A DNA stretch of 64,000 nt from Candidatus Nitrotoga sp. CP45 (GTDB lineage Bacteria; Pseudomonadota; Gammaproteobacteria; Burkholderiales; Gallionellaceae), in assembly GCA_945874105.1 (NCBI GenBank), contig CAMCFJ010000011.1:1-64000 (forward strand), written 5' to 3'. Under the pieces are notes generated by a model, which was given only the letters and a program-made list of their open reading frames with translations, was not told the DNA's origin and did not search any database. This document shows positions 6,945-32,219 of the stretch, in pieces. Within the stretch, counting starts at the first letter, position 1. Every line of letters starts with the position of its first letter. Both the position numbers and the translations under genes were made by a program.

Positions 6945-7454
6945 ATGAATTATCAGGCAAAGCTATCGACACCTTTTGGTATGCTCGGTATCCGCTGTGA
7001 GGCGGATGCGCTGGTCGGCATCGACTTTCTGGAGCCGGATGCCACGCCACAACCGCCGAGCCATGCGTTCGCTCGAGAGGTGTGCGAACAATTGCAGGCA
7101 TATTTCATTAATCCAAATTTTCTTTTTAATCTTTCACTCAAGCTAAACGGCACTGTCCATCAAACAAAAGTGTGGCAGGCAATATCTGCTATTCCATCCG
7201 GTCAAACACAACATTATGGCGATCTTGCCACGTTACTAGCTTCCAGCCCGCGTGCGGTTGGTCAGGCGTGCGGTGCAAATCCCATTCCCATTGTCATCCC
7301 CTGCCATCGAGTGGTGGGCAAGTCTGGTATCGGCGGCTTCATACACCAGCGCGAGGGGGATGCGCTGGATATCAAATGCTGGTTGCTGGCATATGAAAAG
7401 CAATCAAACCAGGGAGTCCATCATTCATGCGCAAAGGGAAGCAACTACAGCTGA
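6945..7454 (+). CDS. ogt: Methylated-DNA--protein-cysteine methyltransferase
   Basis: A suicide repair enzyme that moves the alkyl group from O6-alkylguanine to its own cysteine. The 169 residues contain the active-site motif IPCHRVVGKSG (~125-135) and the DNA-binding helix region with RAVGQACGANP. The methyl-acceptor cysteine is in PCHR. An AAGGAAGG lies just before ATG 6945. It stands 21 bases upstream of xerD and probably shares a transcript. It could equally be named Ada-C type; Ogt fits the length. Confidence 0.93.
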   Translation: MNYQAKLSTPFGMLGIRCEADALVGIDFLEPDATPQPPSHAFAREVCEQLQAYFINPNFLFNLSLKLNGTVHQTKVWQAISAIPSGQTQHYGDLATLLASSPRAVGQACGANPIPIVIPCHRVVGKSGIGGFIHQREGDALDIKCWLLAYEKQSNQGVHHSCAKGSNYS

Positions 7455-24053: not shown

Positions 24054-24173
24054 GGCTACGCTGAACAAATCCGTTCGCGTTGAGCCTGTCGAAACGCACT
24101 CTTTGCAAATCAATAATTTGCAAATGGCTTCGGCAGGCTAAGCCCGAACGGAGGGGCTTATTCAGCACTGCCC
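24054..24173. repeat. Repeat element copy A (~120 bp, imperfect inverted repeat)
   Basis: First of three related elements (also 45283-45402 and 59236-59354). Ends GGCTACGCTGAACAAATCC and the inverted counterpart GGGCTTATTCAGCACTGCCC flank arms containing TTGAGCCTGTCGAAAC and CTTCGGCAGGCTAAGC. This copy is in the opposite orientation to the other two. The centre is TTGCAAATCAATAATTTGCAA. Confidence 0.9.
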
Positions 24174-24309
24174 TAATTCCGCTTCGCTGAAAAAAATCAG
24201 CTTCGGCCCACGCTGCTCACCACACGTTTACAGACTATCCATATTTCATCCTGCACAAAAATGATCAACGTGCCTTATCCCGTTGCCAGATAAAGAGAAC
24301 AAAACAATC

Positions 24310-25848
24310 ATGGCTAAACCAGCAAAAGAAAACAAAGACGAGCCGTTGGAAAAGCAGCTGTGGAAAGCCGCAGACAAGCTGCGCAAGAACATCGACGCTG
24401 CCGAATACAAGCATGTGGTGATGGGGCTGATCTTCCTGAAATACATCTCCGATTCCTTCGAGGAAATGTTTGCCCGATTGCAAGCAGGCGAAGGCGAGTA
24501 TGCAGGCGCCGACCCCGAGGACAAGGACGAATACAAGGCAGAGAATGTTTTCTTTGTGCCAGCAGAAGCGCGCTGGTCGTACCTTGTTGCCAAAGCCAAA
24601 CTACCCACCATCGGTACTGTTGTGGATGAGGCAATGGATGCCATCGAGAAGGAAAACTCCTCGCTCAAGGGCGTGCTGCCCAAGGTGTTCGCGCGGCAAA
24701 ACCTCGACCCCGCCAGCCTCGGCGGGTTGATCGATCTGGTGGGTAACATCGCGCTGGGCGATGCCAAGTCGCGCAGCGCCGATGTGCTGGGGCATGTGTT
24801 CGAATATTTCCTTGGCGAATTCGCGCTGGCCGAAGGCAAACAGGGCGGGCAGTTTTACACGCCGCGCAGCATTGTCGAACTGCTGGTTGCGATGCTGGAA
24901 CCCTACAAAGGCCGGGTGTTCGATCCCTGCTGCGGTTCGGGCGGCATGTTCGTGCAATCGGAAAAATTCGTCGCAGAACATCAGGGCCGCGTCAACGACA
25001 TCTCCATCTACGGGCAGGAAAGCAACCAGACCACCTGGCGGCTGGCCAAGATGAACCTTGCCATACGCGGCATTGATTCTTCTCAAGTCAAATGGAACAA
25101 CGAAGGCTCCTTCCTCAACGACGCCCATAAAGACCTGAAAGCCGACTTCATCATCGCCAACCCGCCGTTCAATGTCAGCGACTGGAGCGGCGAGCTGCTG
25201 CGCGGCGATGGCCGCTGGCAATACGGCGCACCGCCTGCGGGCAATGCCAACTTCGCCTGGCTGCAGCACTTCGCTTACCACCTCAACCCGCAGGGCAAGG
25301 CAGGCGTGGTGCTGGCCAAAGGCGCACTCACCAGCAAGACCAGCGGCGAAGGCGACATCCGCAAAGCGCTGATCGCCGACGGCAACCTGATCGACTGCAT
25401 TGTAAATTTGCCCGCAAAGCTGTTTTTGAATACGCAGATACCGGCAGCGCTGTGGTTCATGAGCCGCGCCAGAAATAACGGTCACCCGCGTAAGGGCGAA
25501 ATCCTCTTCATCGATGCGCGCAACCTCGGTCATCTGATCAACCGCCGCACCAAGGAACTTTCCCACGAGGATATTCAGCACATCGCCGACACCTATCATG
25601 CCTGGCGCGCCGGCGAAGGAAAGTATGAAGACGTGAAAGGCTTTTGCGCCTCCGTGCCGCTGACGCGTGTGCAAGAGCTGGACTATGTGCTCACGCCGGG
25701 GCGCTATGTCGGCCTGCCGGATGAAGAGGACGACTTCAACTTTGCCGAACGTTTCACCGCATTGAAAGCGGAGTTCGAGGCGCAGTTGCGGGAAGAGGCG
25801 GAACTGAATCAGGCTATTGCTGAAAATCTGGCGAAGGTGAAGGCATGA
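24310..25848 (+). CDS. hsdM: Type I DNA methyltransferase subunit HsdM (system 1)
   Basis: The M subunit methylates adenine at the site chosen by HsdS. It has 512 residues: a helical N-terminal domain ([17 protein letters not shown]), SAM motif I DPCCGSGG (from residue 205) and catalytic motif IV NPPF (N284-F287). ATG 24310 is the family start; the frame also offers an upstream TTG. The stop overlaps hsdS in ATGA. It follows repeat copy A. Confidence 0.95.
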
Positions 25849-27020
25849 GCGAGTGGCAGGAAGTAATGTTGAAGGATATCGTTTCTATTCTGGGAGACGG
25901 CCTGCATGGAACTCCAGAATACGATGGCAACGGGGAATATTACTTTATTAACGGCAATAATTTGAGCAATGGAAAAATTGTATTTAAGGAAAATACCAAG
26001 AGAGCAAATAAAGAAGAGTTCGAAAAGCATAAGAAGAATCTAAATGATCGGACAATCTTAGTTTCTATAAACGGAACCATAGGAAACATAGCGGAATATA
26101 ACGATGAAAAGTGCTTTTTAGGTAAGAGTGCCTGCTACTTTAATATTTTAGAAAATGTTGATAAAAAATTCATTTTTTATATGGCAACAAACAATCGCTT
26201 CCAAACGTATATAAGTGAATTTGCACATGGCACAACAATAAAAAATGTTTCTCTCAAGACGATCAGAGAATATTCATTTTTGATTCCTGAACAAGCAGAA
26301 CAAAAAGCCATCGCCGCCGTGCTCTGCAGTCTCGACGACAAAATCGACCTGCTACACCGCCAGAACCAAACCCTCGAAGCCATGGCCGCAACCCTGTTCC
26401 GCCAGTGGTTCGTGGAGGAGGCGCGAGAGGATTGGGAGGAAGTTGTAATTACTGATTTGTTTGAAGTTCGTGATGGCACTCACGATTCGCCAAAGCAGAC
26501 ATCTATCGGTAAGCCTCTAATCACATCGAAGCACATTCTTGATGGTCGGCTTGATATTGGTAATGCATATTTAATTTCAGAGGATGACTTTAATCAAGTA
26601 AACCAGCGTAGCAAAGTTGACACAGGAGATATTCTGTTTTCGATGATTGGGACAATCGGATTAATTTACTTGGAACAATCGCTATCAGTTGATTACGCGA
26701 TTAAAAATATTGGTCTGTTTAAATCCTCTCAAAATCCTGATTGGGCACTATACACATACCTATGGTTGAAATCTTCAAATGGCCGACAATTCATCGACGA
26801 ACATAAAAGTGGAAGTACTCAGGAATATGTAGCATTGGGAAGTTTGCGAAGTATTGTTTTCCAAAAGCCACCTATTGAAGTTTTACAATCATTTAACAAA
26901 TTGGCTTCAGGGTACTTTTCAAAAATTATTTTGAATCGTTCTCAAATCCAAACCCTCGAAACCCTCCGCGACACCCTGCTGCCCAAGCTGATGAGCGGCG
27001 AAGTAAGGGTGGCGGCATGA
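25845..27020 (+). CDS. hsdS: Type I specificity subunit HsdS (system 1)
   Basis: A 391-residue subunit that gives R-M complexes their sequence specificity. It has two target-recognition domains (~1-160 and ~195-350), each followed by a conserved helix: [19 protein letters not shown] (~165) and [21 protein letters not shown] at the end. The recognition domains are AT-richer than the rest, as is common when they have been swapped. A second copy of its last codons appears at ~28266. Confidence 0.94.
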
Positions 27021-27089: not shown

Positions 27090-27656
27090 ATGAGGGAATA
27101 CACTGTGACCAATGCAAACGGACAAATCGCTATTTATCAGACCGAGGACGGTCAAACGCAGATTGATGTCAGGATGGAGAAGGATACGCTCTGGCTGACG
27201 CTGTTGCAGATGGCGGAGCTGTTTGACCGTGATAAATCGGTTATTTCACGGCACTTGAAGAATATCTTTGACACGGGCGAGCTGCCTCGGGAGGCAACTG
27301 TTGCAAAATCTGCAACAGTTCAAATCGAGGGCGGCAGGCACGTCAGCCGTGAAATCGAGTATTTCAATATGGATGCCGTTATATCGGTGAGTTACCGGGT
27401 CAACTCTATCAAGGGTACGCAATTTCGCATTTGGGCTACACAGCGTCTGCGCGAATATCTGGTGCAGGGCTATACGCTAAACCAGTCCCGCTTTGACCAA
27501 AACGCTGCCGAGCTTCAGCAGGCTCTGGCCTTGATCCGCAAGGCGGCGCGTTCGCCGGAACTAAGCGCTGAGGCAGGCAGCGGGCTGGTGGAGATTGTCA
27601 GCCGTTTCACGCAAACCTTTCTTTGGTTGCAGCTGCGGCATGGCGTTCAATCCTGA
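27090..27656 (+). pseudogene. rhuM: Truncated RhuM-family gene
   Basis: The first ~180 residues match RhuM (MEKDTLWLTLLQMAELFDRDKSVISRHLKNIF, REIEYFNMDAVISVSYRVNS). The homology stops at RFTQTFLWLQ, where intact members continue for more than 100 residues. The replacement sequence begins at ~27633, just before the RAYT start. RhuM genes often occur inside type I R-M loci; the function is unsettled. GTG 27105 is an alternative start. Confidence 0.8.
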
Positions 27657-28185
27657 CATTCATCATCGCCGCTCCATTCGGCTGCGCGGATATGACTATT
27701 CGCAGACCAGGATGTATTTCGTGACTATTTGCACGCAAGGTCGCCTGTGCGTGTTCGGAGACGTTGTGGATGGCGTGATGAATTTAAACGATTCGGGAAA
27801 AATGGTGCTCGCCACATGGGATGAAATCCCGGCCCATTACGCAGGTGTTGAAATCGACCGCTTTGTCGTGATGCCAAACCACATCCACGGGGTTATCACC
27901 CTCGTAGGGGCAGGCCCCCGTGCCTGCCCTGATGGTGTTGGGCAACCACAGGGGGTTGCCCCTACGGGGTATTCGTTATCCGATGTCGTGCACCGATTTA
28001 AAACCATGACCACCAAGAAATATACGGATGGCGTTAAACAAAATGGCTGGCAACCATTCCCCGGAAAATTATGGCAACGCAATTATTACGAGCACATCAT
28101 CCGTAATGACGAGGCGTATTTGAAAATCACGGAATACACCCAGACCAATCCCCAGCGTTGGAAAGAGGACACCTATCATGTCTAA
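27640..28185 (+). mobile_element. REP-associated tyrosine transposase (RAYT, IS200-like)
   Basis: A 181-residue single-strand HUH transposase of the Y1 family. The N-terminus has HHRRSIRLRGYDYSQTRMYFVTICTQ. The metal-binding HxH is at 81-83 (MPNHIHGVI). The catalytic Y lies at 149/150 in RNYYEHIIRN. Such proteins mobilise REP sequences. A palindromic repeat lies inside the frame at 27904-27965. The frame is complete, but the last codons overlap the hsdR-like fragment. Confidence 0.88.
27904..27965. repeat. Composite palindromic repeat inside the RAYT frame
   Basis: A 62-bp sequence bounded by GTAGGGGCA and its complement TGCCCCTAC, with internal GGCCCCCGTGCC and GGGCAACC..GGTTGCCC arms. It is read in frame as about 20 residues rich in G, P and A between the HxH strand and the next helix, with no frameshift. 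Confidence 0.85.
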
Positions 28186-28310
28186 GCTCACTGAATCCGC
28201 CATCGAAGATTTTGCCATCAAACTTTTCGAGCGTTTGGGTTATAGCTATGTTTATGCGCCGGATGGCCACCTTGCTGCCCAAACTGATGAGCGGCAAGGT
28301 GCGGGTGGAA
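28178..28310 (+). pseudogene. Chimeric remnant: hsdR 5' end joined to hsdS 3' end
   Basis: 28178-28265 encodes M-S-K-L-T-E-S-A-I-E-D-F-A-I and onwards to SYVYAP, a near-copy of the intact hsdR start at 29010. Over 86 bases there are about 11 differences, and all but one codon are synonymous. From 28266 the sequence changes to the hsdS ending ([12 protein letters not shown]) as at 26982. It is not a functional gene. Confidence 0.85.
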
Positions 28311-28379
28311 CTGATGCCGGATACGCAAGGCAGGAAGTATAATCGCGCCAATGTTGCCGGATGAGTATAGGAGAAACCC

Positions 28380-28670
28380 ATGTTGCTGGACGAATTGCGG
28401 CTGCATAAAAACCGGATCGAGGCTCTGGCGCGGCAATATGGCGCACGGCATATCCGGGTGTTTGGTTCGGTTGCCCGGCGCGAGGAGCGGCCCGATAGCG
28501 ACGTGGACTTTCTGGTGGATTTTCCGCGCGGTTATGATCTGTTCACCCAGCGTATGCCGCTTGCACTCGGGCTGGAGAAGCTGCTGCACCGGAAGGTGGA
28601 GCTGGTGCCGGAGCATGAACTTAACCGGCATATCCGCGAGCGGGTGACGGGCGAGGCGGTGGAGTTATGA
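28380..28670 (+). CDS. mntA: MNT-domain nucleotidyltransferase antitoxin (MntA-type)
   Basis: A 96-residue minimal nucleotidyltransferase with GSVARR (29-34) and SDVDFLV (D41, D43), the metal-binding motif of the MNT family. MntA proteins AMP-modify and neutralise the partner HEPN toxin. A GGAG ribosome-binding site lies before ATG 28380. The stop overlaps hepT in ATGA, the typical MNT-HEPN arrangement. It sits inside the R-M locus between the remnant and hsdR. Confidence 0.9.
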   Translation: MLLDELRLHKNRIEALARQYGARHIRVFGSVARREERPDSDVDFLVDFPRGYDLFTQRMPLALGLEKLLHRKVELVPEHELNRHIRERVTGEAVEL

Positions 28671-29026
28671 GCAAACCGTGGCAGCCCTACGCGCTGCATA
28701 TCCTGGACGCTATCGCAAAAATCCAACGCATTCGGATGCGCGGCGACATCGCCGCCGACGAGGTGCTGTACGATGCCGCGCTGCGCAACTTGCAGACGCT
28801 TTCCGAAGCCACGCAGTTATTGCCGGACGACAGGAAAGCGGCATTCCCCAATATCCCTTGGCAGGAAATCAGTGGCTTTCGCAATATCCTCGTGCATAAT
28901 TATCTGGGGGACATCGATCCATTGACGATCGCAGCCGTGATCGACAAGAATCTGCCCGCGCTCGAAGAGAGTATCCGTGCCATGCTGGCGCAGAACCACG
29001 GCAACGGGAATGACCAAGCTCACTGA
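28667..29026 (+). CDS. hepT: HEPN-domain toxin (HepT/DUF86-type)
   Basis: A 119-residue all-helical HEPN ribonuclease candidate. The RX4H active site is R72-NILV-H77, followed by NYL. Its tyrosine is the usual target of AMPylation by MntA. The stop overlaps the hsdR start by 17 bases, so the toxin-antitoxin pair and hsdR are translationally linked. Confidence 0.9.
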   Translation: MSKPWQPYALHILDAIAKIQRIRMRGDIAADEVLYDAALRNLQTLSEATQLLPDDRKAAFPNIPWQEISGFRNILVHNYLGDIDPLTIAAVIDKNLPALEESIRAMLAQNHGNGNDQAH

Positions 29027-32000
29027 ATCCGCCATCGAAGATTTCGCCATCAAGCTATTTGAGCGCTTGGGCTACAGCTACGTTTATGCACCGGACATCG
29101 CGCCCGATGGCGACAGGCCGGAACGCAGCCGCTACGATGAGGTATTGCTGTCCGGTCGGATGGAATCAGCGCTGAAACGCATCAATCCCAAGTTGTCGCC
29201 CGCATTGCTGCAAGCTGGGTTGAAAGAAGTGCAGCGCATCCATTCACCTGACCTGCTGGCGAACAATGAGGCGTTCCATCGCTTGCTGACCGAGGGCGTG
29301 CCGGTATCTGCCCACAAGGATGGCGCCGAGCGCGGCGAGCGAGTATGGCTGATCGACTTTGCTAACCCGGAAAACAACGAGTTCGTCGTCGCCAACCAGT
29401 TCACGGTAATTGAAAACCATCAAAAAAAGCGGCCTGACTTGGTGCTATTCGTCAACGGCATTCCGCTGGTGGTGATCGAGCTGAAAAATGCCATCGACGA
29501 AAACGCCACGATCAAAGCGGCGAATCAGCAGCTTGAAACTTACAAGCAGACTATCCCCGGCCTGTTCACTTCCAATGCCTTGCTGGTGATTTCCGATGGA
29601 CTGGAGGCCAAGGCAGGTTCGCTCTCCGCAGGCTTGAGTCGTTTCATGGTTTGGAAAAGCGCAGACGGCAAGGCGGAGGCTTCGCATCTGGTGAGCCAGT
29701 TGGAAACGCTAATACTCGGCATGTTGAACAAGGCCACGCTGCTGGATTTGCTGCGCCACTTCATCGTGTTTGAAAAGAGCAAGAAGGAAGACCCGCAAAC
29801 TGGCGTGATCAGCATCAGCACGGTGAAGAAAGTGGCGGCTTATCACCAGTATTACGCGGTGAATGCGGCGGTGGCCTCCACGCTACGCGCGGCAGATATG
29901 GGAGGAAGTTTGCGGATTGAACAGACTCCGGCCAGCTATGGTTTGCCCGGCGTGGCGCATCAGTTCAAAGGCGACAAGAAGGCAGGAGTGGTGTGGCACA
30001 CACAAGGTTCAGGCAAATCACTTTCGATGGTGTTTTACACCGGCAAGATTGTACTGGCGCTGGATAACCCGACTGTATTGGTGATTACAGACCGCAACGA
30101 TCTGGACGATCAGTTGTTCGATACGTTTGCCGCATCCAAACAACTGTTGCGGCAGGAGCCAGTGCAGGCAGCGGATCGCGGGCAGTTGAAGGAGTTGCTG
30201 AAGGTGGCCTCGGGTGGCGTGATCTTTTCCACGATCCAGAAATTCCAGCCCGATGAGAGTAATGTGTATGAGCAGTTGTCCGACCGCCGCAATATCGTGG
30301 TGATTGTGGATGAGGCGCACCGCACGCAATACGGCTTTAGCGCCAAGACCGTGGATGAGAAAGATGCCAACGGCGAAGTGATCGGCAAGAAGGTGGTGTA
30401 CGGCTTTGCCAAATACCTGCGCGATGCGCTGCCCAACGCGACCTATCTTGGATTCACCGGCACACCGATTGAAAAAACGGATGTGAACACTCCGGCGGTG
30501 TTCGGCAACTACGTGGATATCTATGACATCGCCCAGGCGGTTGAAGATGGCGCGACGGTGCGGATTTATTACGAGAGCCGCTTGGCGAAGGTGGGCTTGA
30601 GCGAAGAAGGGAAAATGCTGGTTGCTGAGTTGGACGAGGAGCTGGATCAGGAGGATTTGACTGATACGCAGAAAGCCAAGGCCAAGTGGACAAAGATGGA
30701 GGCGCTGATCGGCAGCAAGCAGCGCCTCAAAAATATTGCAAAAGACATCGTGGCGCACTTCGAGGCGCGTCAGGCGGTGTTTGCAGGCAAGGGCATGGTG
30801 GTGAGCATGTCGCGGCGCATTGCCGCAGAATTATACAAAGAGATTGTCGCGTTCAAGCCTGAATGGCACTCCGATGATTTGAACAAGGGCGCAATCAAGG
30901 TGGTGATGACGGCTGCTTCCAGCGATGGCCCGCTGCTGGCCAAACACCACACCACCAAAGAGCAACGCAAGCAGTTGGCAGAGCGGATGAAGAATGACGA
31001 CGACCCGCTCAAGCTGGTGATCGTTCGCGATATGTGGCTGACCGGTTTTGATGCGCCAAGCATGCACACCCTCTACATTGACAAGCCGATGAAGGGGCAT
31101 AATTTGATGCAGGCGATTGAGCGCGTGAACCGGGTACACAAGGATAAGCCGGGCGGCCTGGTGGTGGATTATCTGGGGATTGCCGCTGACCTTAAGGAGG
31201 CGCTGTCTTTCTATTCCGATGCGGGCGGCAAGGGCGACCCTGCATTGGCACAGGAGCAGGCAGTGAGCCTGATGCTGGAGAAATTGGAAGTGGTGTCGGC
31301 CATGTATCACGGCTTTGCCTATGAAAACTATTTCGAGGCCGATACCACGCGCAAGCTGTCATTGATTCTGGCAGCGGAGGAGCATATTCTCGGGCTGGAG
31401 GATGGCAGGAAGCGGTATATCAACGAGGTGACCGCACTCTCTCTGGCTTTTGCCATCGCTGTGCCGCACGAACAGGCCATGGATGCCCGCGACGAAGTGG
31501 GATTTTTTCAGGCGGTGAAAGCGCGCCTGGCCAAGTTCGACAGCACGGGTGAAGGTCGCAGCAACGAAGAGATCGAAACCACCATCCGTCAGGTGATCGA
31601 CAAGGCGCTGGTGTCGGAACAGGTGATTGATATCTTTGACGCGGCGGGCATCAAGAAGCCGGACATTTCCATTTTGTCCGACGAGTTCTTGGCTGAGCTG
31701 AAAGGCCACAAACACAAAAATGTGGCTATAGAAATACTGAAAAAATTGCTCAATGACGAGCTGAGAGCGCGCGCCAAAAAAAATCTGGTGCAGAGCAAAA
31801 CATTGATGGAAATGCTGGAAAACGCCATCAAAAAATATCATAACAAAATTCTGACCGCCGCCGAAGTGATGGAGGAGCTGATCAAAATCAGCAAAGAAAT
31901 TGTCGCTTCCGATGATGAGGCCAAGCAGATGGGTCTGAGCGATTTTGAATATGCGTTCTACACGGCGGTGGCCAACAACGACAGTGCGCGCGAGCTGATG

Positions 32001-32219
32001 CAGCATGACCAATTGCGTGCGCTGGCGGTGGTGCTGACGCAGAGGGTGCGTGAGAATGCGTCTATAGATTGGACGATCAAGGAAAGCGTGAAGGCCAAGC
32101 TGAAGGTGATTGTGAAACGAACCTTGCGTCAATTTGGATACCCGCCAGACATGCAGTTGCTTGCCACTGAAACGGTGTTAAAGCAGGCTGAGATGCTGGC
32201 CAATGAGCTGGCAGGCTAG
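29010..32219 (+). CDS. hsdR: Type I restriction subunit HsdR (system 1)
   Basis: The R subunit translocates DNA and cuts at a distance. It has 1,069 residues: an N-terminal PD-(D/E)xK nuclease with RPDLVLFVNGIPLVVIELKNA, Walker A QGSGKS from G333, DEAH at 434-437, then helicase motifs (LGFTGTPIE, QAIERVNRVHK) and a helical C-terminal part. ATG 29010 was chosen because the duplicated remnant at 28178 starts at the same residue. It is separated from hsdMS by about 2 kb of inserted material. Confidence 0.95.
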   Translation: MTKLTESAIEDFAIKLFERLGYSYVYAPDIAPDGDRPERSRYDEVLLSGRMESALKRINPKLSPALLQAGLKEVQRIHSPDLLANNEAFHRLLTEGVPVSAHKDGAERGERVWLIDFANPENNEFVVANQFTVIENHQKKRPDLVLFVNGIPLVVIELKNAIDENATIKAANQQLETYKQTIPGLFTSNALLVISDGLEAKAGSLSAGLSRFMVWKSADGKAEASHLVSQLETLILGMLNKATLLDLLRHFIVFEKSKKEDPQTGVISISTVKKVAAYHQYYAVNAAVASTLRAADMGGSLRIEQTPASYGLPGVAHQFKGDKKAGVVWHTQGSGKSLSMVFYTGKIVLALDNPTVLVITDRNDLDDQLFDTFAASKQLLRQEPVQAADRGQLKELLKVASGGVIFSTIQKFQPDESNVYEQLSDRRNIVVIVDEAHRTQYGFSAKTVDEKDANGEVIGKKVVYGFAKYLRDALPNATYLGFTGTPIEKTDVNTPAVFGNYVDIYDIAQAVEDGATVRIYYESRLAKVGLSEEGKMLVAELDEELDQEDLTDTQKAKAKWTKMEALIGSKQRLKNIAKDIVAHFEARQAVFAGKGMVVSMSRRIAAELYKEIVAFKPEWHSDDLNKGAIKVVMTAASSDGPLLAKHHTTKEQRKQLAERMKNDDDPLKLVIVRDMWLTGFDAPSMHTLYIDKPMKGHNLMQAIERVNRVHKDKPGGLVVDYLGIAADLKEALSFYSDAGGKGDPALAQEQAVSLMLEKLEVVSAMYHGFAYENYFEADTTRKLSLILAAEEHILGLEDGRKRYINEVTALSLAFAIAVPHEQAMDARDEVGFFQAVKARLAKFDSTGEGRSNEEIETTIRQVIDKALVSEQVIDIFDAAGIKKPDISILSDEFLAELKGHKHKNVAIEILKKLLNDELRARAKKNLVQSKTLMEMLENAIKKYHNKILTAAEVMEELIKISKEIVASDDEAKQMGLSDFEYAFYTAVANNDSARELMQHDQLRALAVVLTQRVRENASIDWTIKESVKAKLKVIVKRTLRQFGYPPDMQLLATETVLKQAEMLANELAG

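Follow-up and report, generated by a model that had tools for sequence, protein, structure and literature searches.

Chimeric hsdR-start/hsdS-tail seams in type I restriction-modification operons as probable marks of stacked defence-type cargo

Introduction

Candidate phage-defence genes frequently turn up within operons of other defence systems, and the published passages considered here leave their route of entry unexplained. The PDC families of PADLOC reportedly come from a study of embedding by Payne et al. In these families, as in the locus described here, the cargo is embedded in a type I restriction-modification (RM) operon, and the same holds for prrC, which is embedded in the EcoprrI operon (excerpt of PMC3874165). 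DarTG2 of the RptR island sits, like our cargo, in the gap between hsdS and hsdR, and this site is called a potential recombination hotspot in the excerpt of PMC12255303. Unlike our locus, the prrC and DarTG2 accounts, as excerpted, contain neither hsdR-start/hsdS-tail seams nor stacked cargos separated by such seams. The gap as a hotspot is already published; none of the literature matches listed describes the seams, which have no published account among those matches.

Two described processes resemble what is found here. The excerpt of PMC3031569 cites Nobusato et al. 2000 for insertion with long target duplication of RM genes; as in our locus, the inserted genes lie between direct repeats tens of bases long. 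In our case, however, the two copies of the repeat resemble different alleles, and part of hsdS lies at the junction; the copies are 87% identical, with a closer match elsewhere, where a single target would give identical starts. Homology-facilitated illegitimate recombination, treated in the excerpt of PMC3240628 together with circularisation of linear DNA and single-crossover integration in E. coli, has one homologous and one illegitimate end, and this fits the hsdR mosaic and the abrupt left junction reported below, with the difference that our locus displays only a fitting product, known from its sequence. Stubs and hsdR/hsdS seams would show directly in which order cargos arrived, what kind of donor supplied them and what type of junction was made, and they offer a search handle for embedded cassettes.

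Results

Layout of the operon

The window is the whole 64,000-nt stretch of DNA analysed (contig CAMCFJ010000011.1), and coordinates without a locus name refer to it. Pfam matches place hsdM, hsdS and hsdR on the + strand in one orientation, with a truncated rhuM, RAYT, MNT and HEPN as the non-RM genes of the hsdS-hsdR gap. In operon order the features are:

24283..25848, + strand: hsdM (N6 methylase); Pfam N6_Mtase (4.7e-105) and HsdM_N
25845..27020, + strand: hsdS, intact specificity subunit; Pfam Methylase_S; its 3' end (26972-27012) matches the scar tail (blastn)
27090..27656, + strand: rhuM-like gene, truncated, the first cargo; Pfam Virulence_RhuM, only positions 1-73 of 252
27641..28185, + strand: RAYT, IS200-like (Y1) transposase gene; Pfam Y1_Tnp (9.3e-6)
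28178..28263, + strand: hsdR-start stub; 75/86 identity to 29010-29095, codon pattern and spacing
28268..28308, + strand: hsdS tail fused to the stub; alignment, with 0/400 null segments scoring as high
28338..28343, + strand: TATAAT hexamer ahead of MNT, read in the sequence
28380..28670, + strand: MNT nucleotidyltransferase, the second cargo; Pfam NTP_transf_2, PADLOC PDC-S09 (7e-33)
28667..29026, + strand: HEPN (HepT-like ribonuclease), the MNT partner; Pfam HepT-like (1.8e-18)
29010..32219, + strand: intact hsdR; Pfam HSDR_N, SWI2_SNF2 and T1RH-like_C

The label RAYT is our naming and that of an earlier note on this DNA, the Pfam match itself being to Y1_Tnp. The HEPN protein of the window gave no PADLOC match. 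Near 27101-27335 the truncated rhuM-like gene is 98-99% identical to strain MKT. The TATAAT hexamer is possibly a candidate -10 box belonging to the cargo; the MNT-HEPN pair of genome G278, in a stretch that contains no hsdR, resembles the window from 28324 onward. Two imperfect inverted repeats were also observed: one of 30 nt, REP-like, at 27900-27969 within the open RAYT reading frame, and one of 24 nt at 24070-24152, directly upstream of hsdM, possibly of another repeat family.

The stub/tail chimera

Between RAYT and MNT lies a chimera of two gene fragments. Within the window, an ungapped alignment pairs 28178-28263 with 29010-29095, where the intact hsdR starts (75/86 bases, 87.2%, E 2e-25), and 28268-28308 aligns to the end of hsdS at 26972-27012 (85.4% over 41 bp, E 5e-8); the earlier note had described an hsdR fragment joined to an hsdS tail, and both parts of that description stand. 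The sequence after the stub matches an hsdS tail better than any of 400 random cargo segments. The stub frame comprises 54 codons and ends at a stop at 28340-28342; the hsdS-tail frame is a different one and its stop is at 28362-28364. At the left, RAYT and the stub share 8 nt, from the stub ATG (28178) to the RAYT stop (28183-28185).

Across its 28 codons the stub differs from the intact hsdR in ten, nine of them synonymous and one a replacement, in agreement with the earlier count of about 11 differing bases in 86 with all but one codon synonymous. The lone replacement, Ser2 against Thr2, falls inside the RAYT/stub overlap. Of all single changes that could occur in the stub, about 21% would be synonymous; nine in ten by chance therefore has P ~8e-6. 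The two copies are thus 13% apart almost only at synonymous sites, which argues that they diverged as working genes before they were joined, as the note had held, and this codon pattern rules out a recent local duplication of the hsdR start. The note's preference for a related system as the source is likewise upheld: among 82 hsdR starts, the closest to the stub is that of the Ca. Nitrotoga MAG CP45 (90%), and the local hsdR comes second (87%).

A chimera also stands before MNT-HEPN-hsdR in L026, a locus from an independently assembled Sideroxydans MAG, with the join at the same place except for a 3-nt difference. The window chimera is therefore no assembly artefact, and assembly error was discarded as its source.

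RAYT directly before hsdR in relatives

The check proposed with the earlier note, a search among relatives for RAYT directly followed by hsdR, turned up this arrangement repeatedly. A RAYT-cluster ORF directly precedes hsdR in 7/75 loci (L029, L034, L039, L041, L060, L087 and L088), the 75 being the hsdR loci, window included, that have an ORF ending at hsdR. In all seven the RAYT stop overlaps the hsdR ATG by 8 nt (six by script, L087 on reading), and the same 8-nt overlap recurs at the window stub and at the stub of L077. The RAYT-cluster member of L039 matches Y1_Tnp at 5e-4, below the curated cut-off.

The region was further searched in 149 related genomes, of which 31 gave a match. In G001, a genome of the same genus, RAYT leads straight into an hsdR start, with 89% identity over window positions 27640-28261; this copy is broken, its hsdR being cut to 109 codons and its RAYT frame apparently interrupted. 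In G010 and G014, also of the same genus, the DNA match here consists only of RAYT and 27 bases of the hsdR start, followed by the downstream flank. In the most likely reading, the stub is the beginning of an hsdR that formerly followed RAYT and has stayed in place. This refines the earlier account: the stub itself would belong to the old resident hsdR, and the parts that came from elsewhere would be the hsdS tail, MNT-HEPN and the beginning of the now-intact hsdR. A point against this reading is that the hsdR start nearest to the stub, that of CP45, is not linked to a RAYT.

Several minor features of these relatives were recorded. The G001 locus (L104) has no DNA match to hsdM or to most of hsdS, and in it an hsdS tail on its own is preceded by a 415-aa protein without Pfam matches. 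In L109 (6787-6816), a perfect 13-nt hairpin comes after the RAYT/hsdR remnant of G010.

Recurrence of hsdR-start stubs

The first 75 residues of 81 hsdR proteins were compared with up to 6 kb upstream of each gene. Stubs of hsdR starts were found upstream of the intact hsdR at 15 places in 13/81 loci, each of them lying on the + strand and extending to codon 1, and in a control 13 other 75-residue hsdR blocks gave 0-6 places each, 19 in total. The full 6 kb was available for 53 of the 81 loci and less than 1 kb for five; L101 lacks the hsdR start, in L092 that start lies outside the contig and G029 gave no long match to hsdR, so that these three are absent from the 81. Because L028 and L030 are almost identical, the distinct total is 14 places in 12 loci. 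L030 is counted among the 81 and the 75 loci; the set of 15 stubs described below drops it and adds G169. The window seam is one among many such seams and no single accident.

Twelve of the 15 stubs start between -40 and +20 nt from the stop of the preceding gene (-8 in the window), as do 56/79 intact hsdR genes but only 19/300 random ATGs. In G001 the rule took a longer PIN ORF, 238 nt away, although an antitoxin-like ORF ends 3 nt before the stub; counted by eye with this ORF, the spacing is tight for 13/15. Since the stubs are spaced like intact hsdR genes and unlike random ATGs, most of them appear to be former hsdR starts left in place. Their ends vary, from codon 16 to codon 45 in the main set and farther in some distant families. 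A recognisable hsdS tail, defined as one that at most 4 of 400 random cargo segments match as well, follows seven of the 15 (window, G001, L025, L026 twice, L039 and G169). The remaining eight run into sequence without clear hsdS, several of them into the region just before an AbiEi gene. L083 is a chimera by eye, yet 40/400 null segments score as high, which makes it non-significant.

Insertion of the cargo into hsdR with duplication of its first 86 bases would give the same geometry, with a direct repeat of tens of bases on either side of the cargo, and long, variable duplications are described for RM genes in the excerpt of PMC3031569. The own hsdR is indeed the best match for three of the 15 stubs (L025, L083 and L086). 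For the other 12, however, the hsdR start of another locus is closer; the window copies, with nearly all their differences synonymous, had diverged before joining; and such a duplication leaves the hsdS tail between stub and cargo unexplained. We regard long target duplication as very unlikely to be the origin of the seam.

Searches with the hsdR start gave matches in 42/158 genomes of the family, 78/399 of the order and 51/369 of the class. Additional stubs in these sets were chosen by eye as second hits on one contig, and were seen on full-hsdR contigs in G169 and G377 (two) and with distant hsdR families in G176, G208 (contig 12), G113, G221 and G624; second hits in G595 (downstream of hsdR) and G675 (inside a long ORF) were left uncounted. 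The seams of the window, L026 and G169 may represent one event with later change, because the MNT-HEPN cargo is common to all three.

Four further stretches, L147, L175, L178 (a short contig) and L180, carry hsdR starts with no other hsdR in the stretch read and are perhaps remnants of lost operons. In L173 (G624, a distant hsdR family) the stub is followed, near 6950-7100, by repeats of a palindromic sequence and by what may be a RAYT start.

Cargo and stacks

The genes found at stub loci include those for Kiwa KwaA/KwaB, DUF3800, AbiEi/AbiEii, Schlafen AlbA_2 and GmrSD, and also PIN, RhuM, RhuM-Fic, Bro-N and RAYT. PADLOC assigned the RhuM-Fic protein of L039 to PDC-S23 and PDC-S05, and the DUF3800 protein of L026 to PDC-M04A. 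By its family labels the cargo would be of the defence type. The stack in L026 reads hsdS, KwaA, KwaB, chimera, DUF3800 gene, a further ORF, a second chimera, MNT, HEPN and hsdR; G169 has a KwaB-like gene, one chimera, MNT-HEPN and hsdR; and L031 has two KwaA/KwaB-like genes, a stub, Bro-N, a second stub, an AbiEi-MNT fusion, HEPN and hsdR. The Kiwa labels in G169 and L031 were given by likeness to L026. In L063 no cargo precedes the stub.

An AbiEi-like protein fused to MNT is encoded at 7602-8947 of L107, where the HEPN protein ends like the tail of the L106 antitoxin-like protein; the ends of cargo genes may be scarred too. Ahead of AbiEi-like genes, about 350 nt or less after the stubs, a palindrome such as CCAGAAAAATGCTATATTTTTTCTGG occurs in L025, L028, L031, L083, L086 and L091, and palindromes of this type may be putative operators of these genes.

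Allele mosaic and donor

The nearest hsdR genes found belong to the Ca. Nitrotoga MAGs CP45 and MKT (95%). Sliding identity to CP45 is 93-98% over 28301-29800, covering MNT, HEPN and the first 0.8 kb of hsdR; outside it is 85-94% in hsdM, 82-86% at 29801-30100 and 89-97% in hsdR beyond, so that high identity to CP45 is not restricted to the block proposed to have arrived. The hsdR start is another one in MKT and G001, with identities at 29051-29350 of 85/71% and 81/69%, respectively. MKT then returns to 89-97%, which places an allele switch inside hsdR near 29350-29500, a pattern that fits a crossover. These comparisons indicate that alleles differ in the 5' part of the intact hsdR. The window and CP45 have this 5' allele and MNT-HEPN in common, and we read MNT-HEPN and the intact hsdR start as having probably come together from another allele.

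Across all divergent loci, in a test restricted to pairs of loci whose C-termini were at least 60% identical, the hsdR start and the adjacent cargo showed no significant link (permutation p 0.13). An ideal donor with the order hsdS-MNT-HEPN-hsdR was found neither among the four HEPN-adjacent loci nor among the eight loci inspected, most with 1.5 kb of flank. DNA of the tail-MNT-HEPN region was matched somewhere in 46/399 genomes of the order, and G278 and G315 have MNT-HEPN with no hsdR within the 3.6 kb fetched. One scan of viral contigs with hsdR gave no relative, leaving phage carriage unsupported, and in the plasmid search 456 records with hsdR starts were listed, every one a distant match of less than 60% identity.

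Formation of the seam

In our judgement the chimera is probably a seam marking the addition of a second cargo module to the gap between hsdS and hsdR of a type I operon, and we read the recurrent stubs as seams from the stacking of defence-type cargo (Kiwa, AbiE, RhuM, MNT-HEPN and GmrSD) in that gap. DNA from a related operon, extending from its own hsdS tail through MNT-HEPN into its own hsdR, would have recombined with the resident operon. At the right end a crossover inside hsdR would have used ordinary homology; at the left end an illegitimate join would have linked the incoming hsdS tail to what remains of the old hsdR, its first 28 codons. The product would retain the M-S-R set and acquire a second cargo, and the same process would recur in related operons, short stubs perhaps reflecting the loss of longer direct repeats. 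Bases are held in common at several junctions, for example CAAACTG in G001 and CGAGGTG in L025; junction microhomology did not exceed simulation, at least five shared bases being present in 22% of 60 simulated joins. No integrase occurs among the proteins annotated. With this absence, the variable stub ends and the presence of RAYT beside hsdR in only 7/75 loci, a site-specific cassette system of the integron or IS kind was rejected.

The same product would result from a circle that carried the cargo together with an hsdR start fused end to end to an hsdS tail and entered the operon by a single crossover in the hsdR start of the resident. This would account for the order of R start then S tail and for hybrid stubs, and circularisation of linear DNA with single-crossover integration is reported in E. 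coli (excerpt of PMC3240628). Neither a circular intermediate nor an integrase was seen among the annotated proteins, however, and sequence alone cannot separate this route from linear capture; we hold circle integration to be unlikely. An order of M-S-cargo1-R/S-cargo2-R is also what tandem placement of two related operons would yield after a deletion that began in the first hsdR and ended in the second hsdS. A plain duplication would repeat the cargo, whereas the two sides of a stub differ in the cargo-annotated loci, and the scheme requires that two different operons had been brought together beforehand; we find it rather improbable.

Function of the scar

That the chimera is a functional small gene, or an adaptor for translational coupling between the first and second cargo, has some points in its favour. 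Significant chimeras are in frame in L025, L026 (at 6376), L039 and G001, and the non-significant one of L083 is perhaps in frame too; upstream stops overlap or abut many of the stub ATGs; and between the window and L026 the 28 stub codons keep 23/28 residues at 65/84 bases (77%), the differences being mostly synonymous. In the window, L026 (at 8001) and G169, however, the chimera is out of frame, many stubs are decayed, and the whole chimera is less conserved than its neighbours. Between the window and L026 it is 79% identical with indels, against 93% for MNT, 92% for HEPN and 86% for the first 600 nt of hsdR, which makes it the least conserved of the stretches compared. A functional chimera seems to us highly improbable, and the scar is probably without protein function.

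It should be noted that identity at third positions between the window and L026 is 81-83% in MNT and HEPN and only 66-68% in hsdR, so that free drift of the seam is not cleanly supported. The mostly synonymous differences between the two stubs suggest that their starts may stem from different hsdR alleles, through later exchange.

Order of the layers

The 5' end of hsdR could be a general docking place for defence cassettes and the hsdS-hsdR gap a stratigraphy of cassette gain, with the newest cassette beside hsdR; we offer this generalisation tentatively. Each cassette would enter directly upstream of hsdR and the old start would remain, often fused to the hsdS tail of the newcomer. In the three two-stub loci L026, L031 and G377, replacement changes make up a larger proportion of the changes in the distal stub than in the proximal one.
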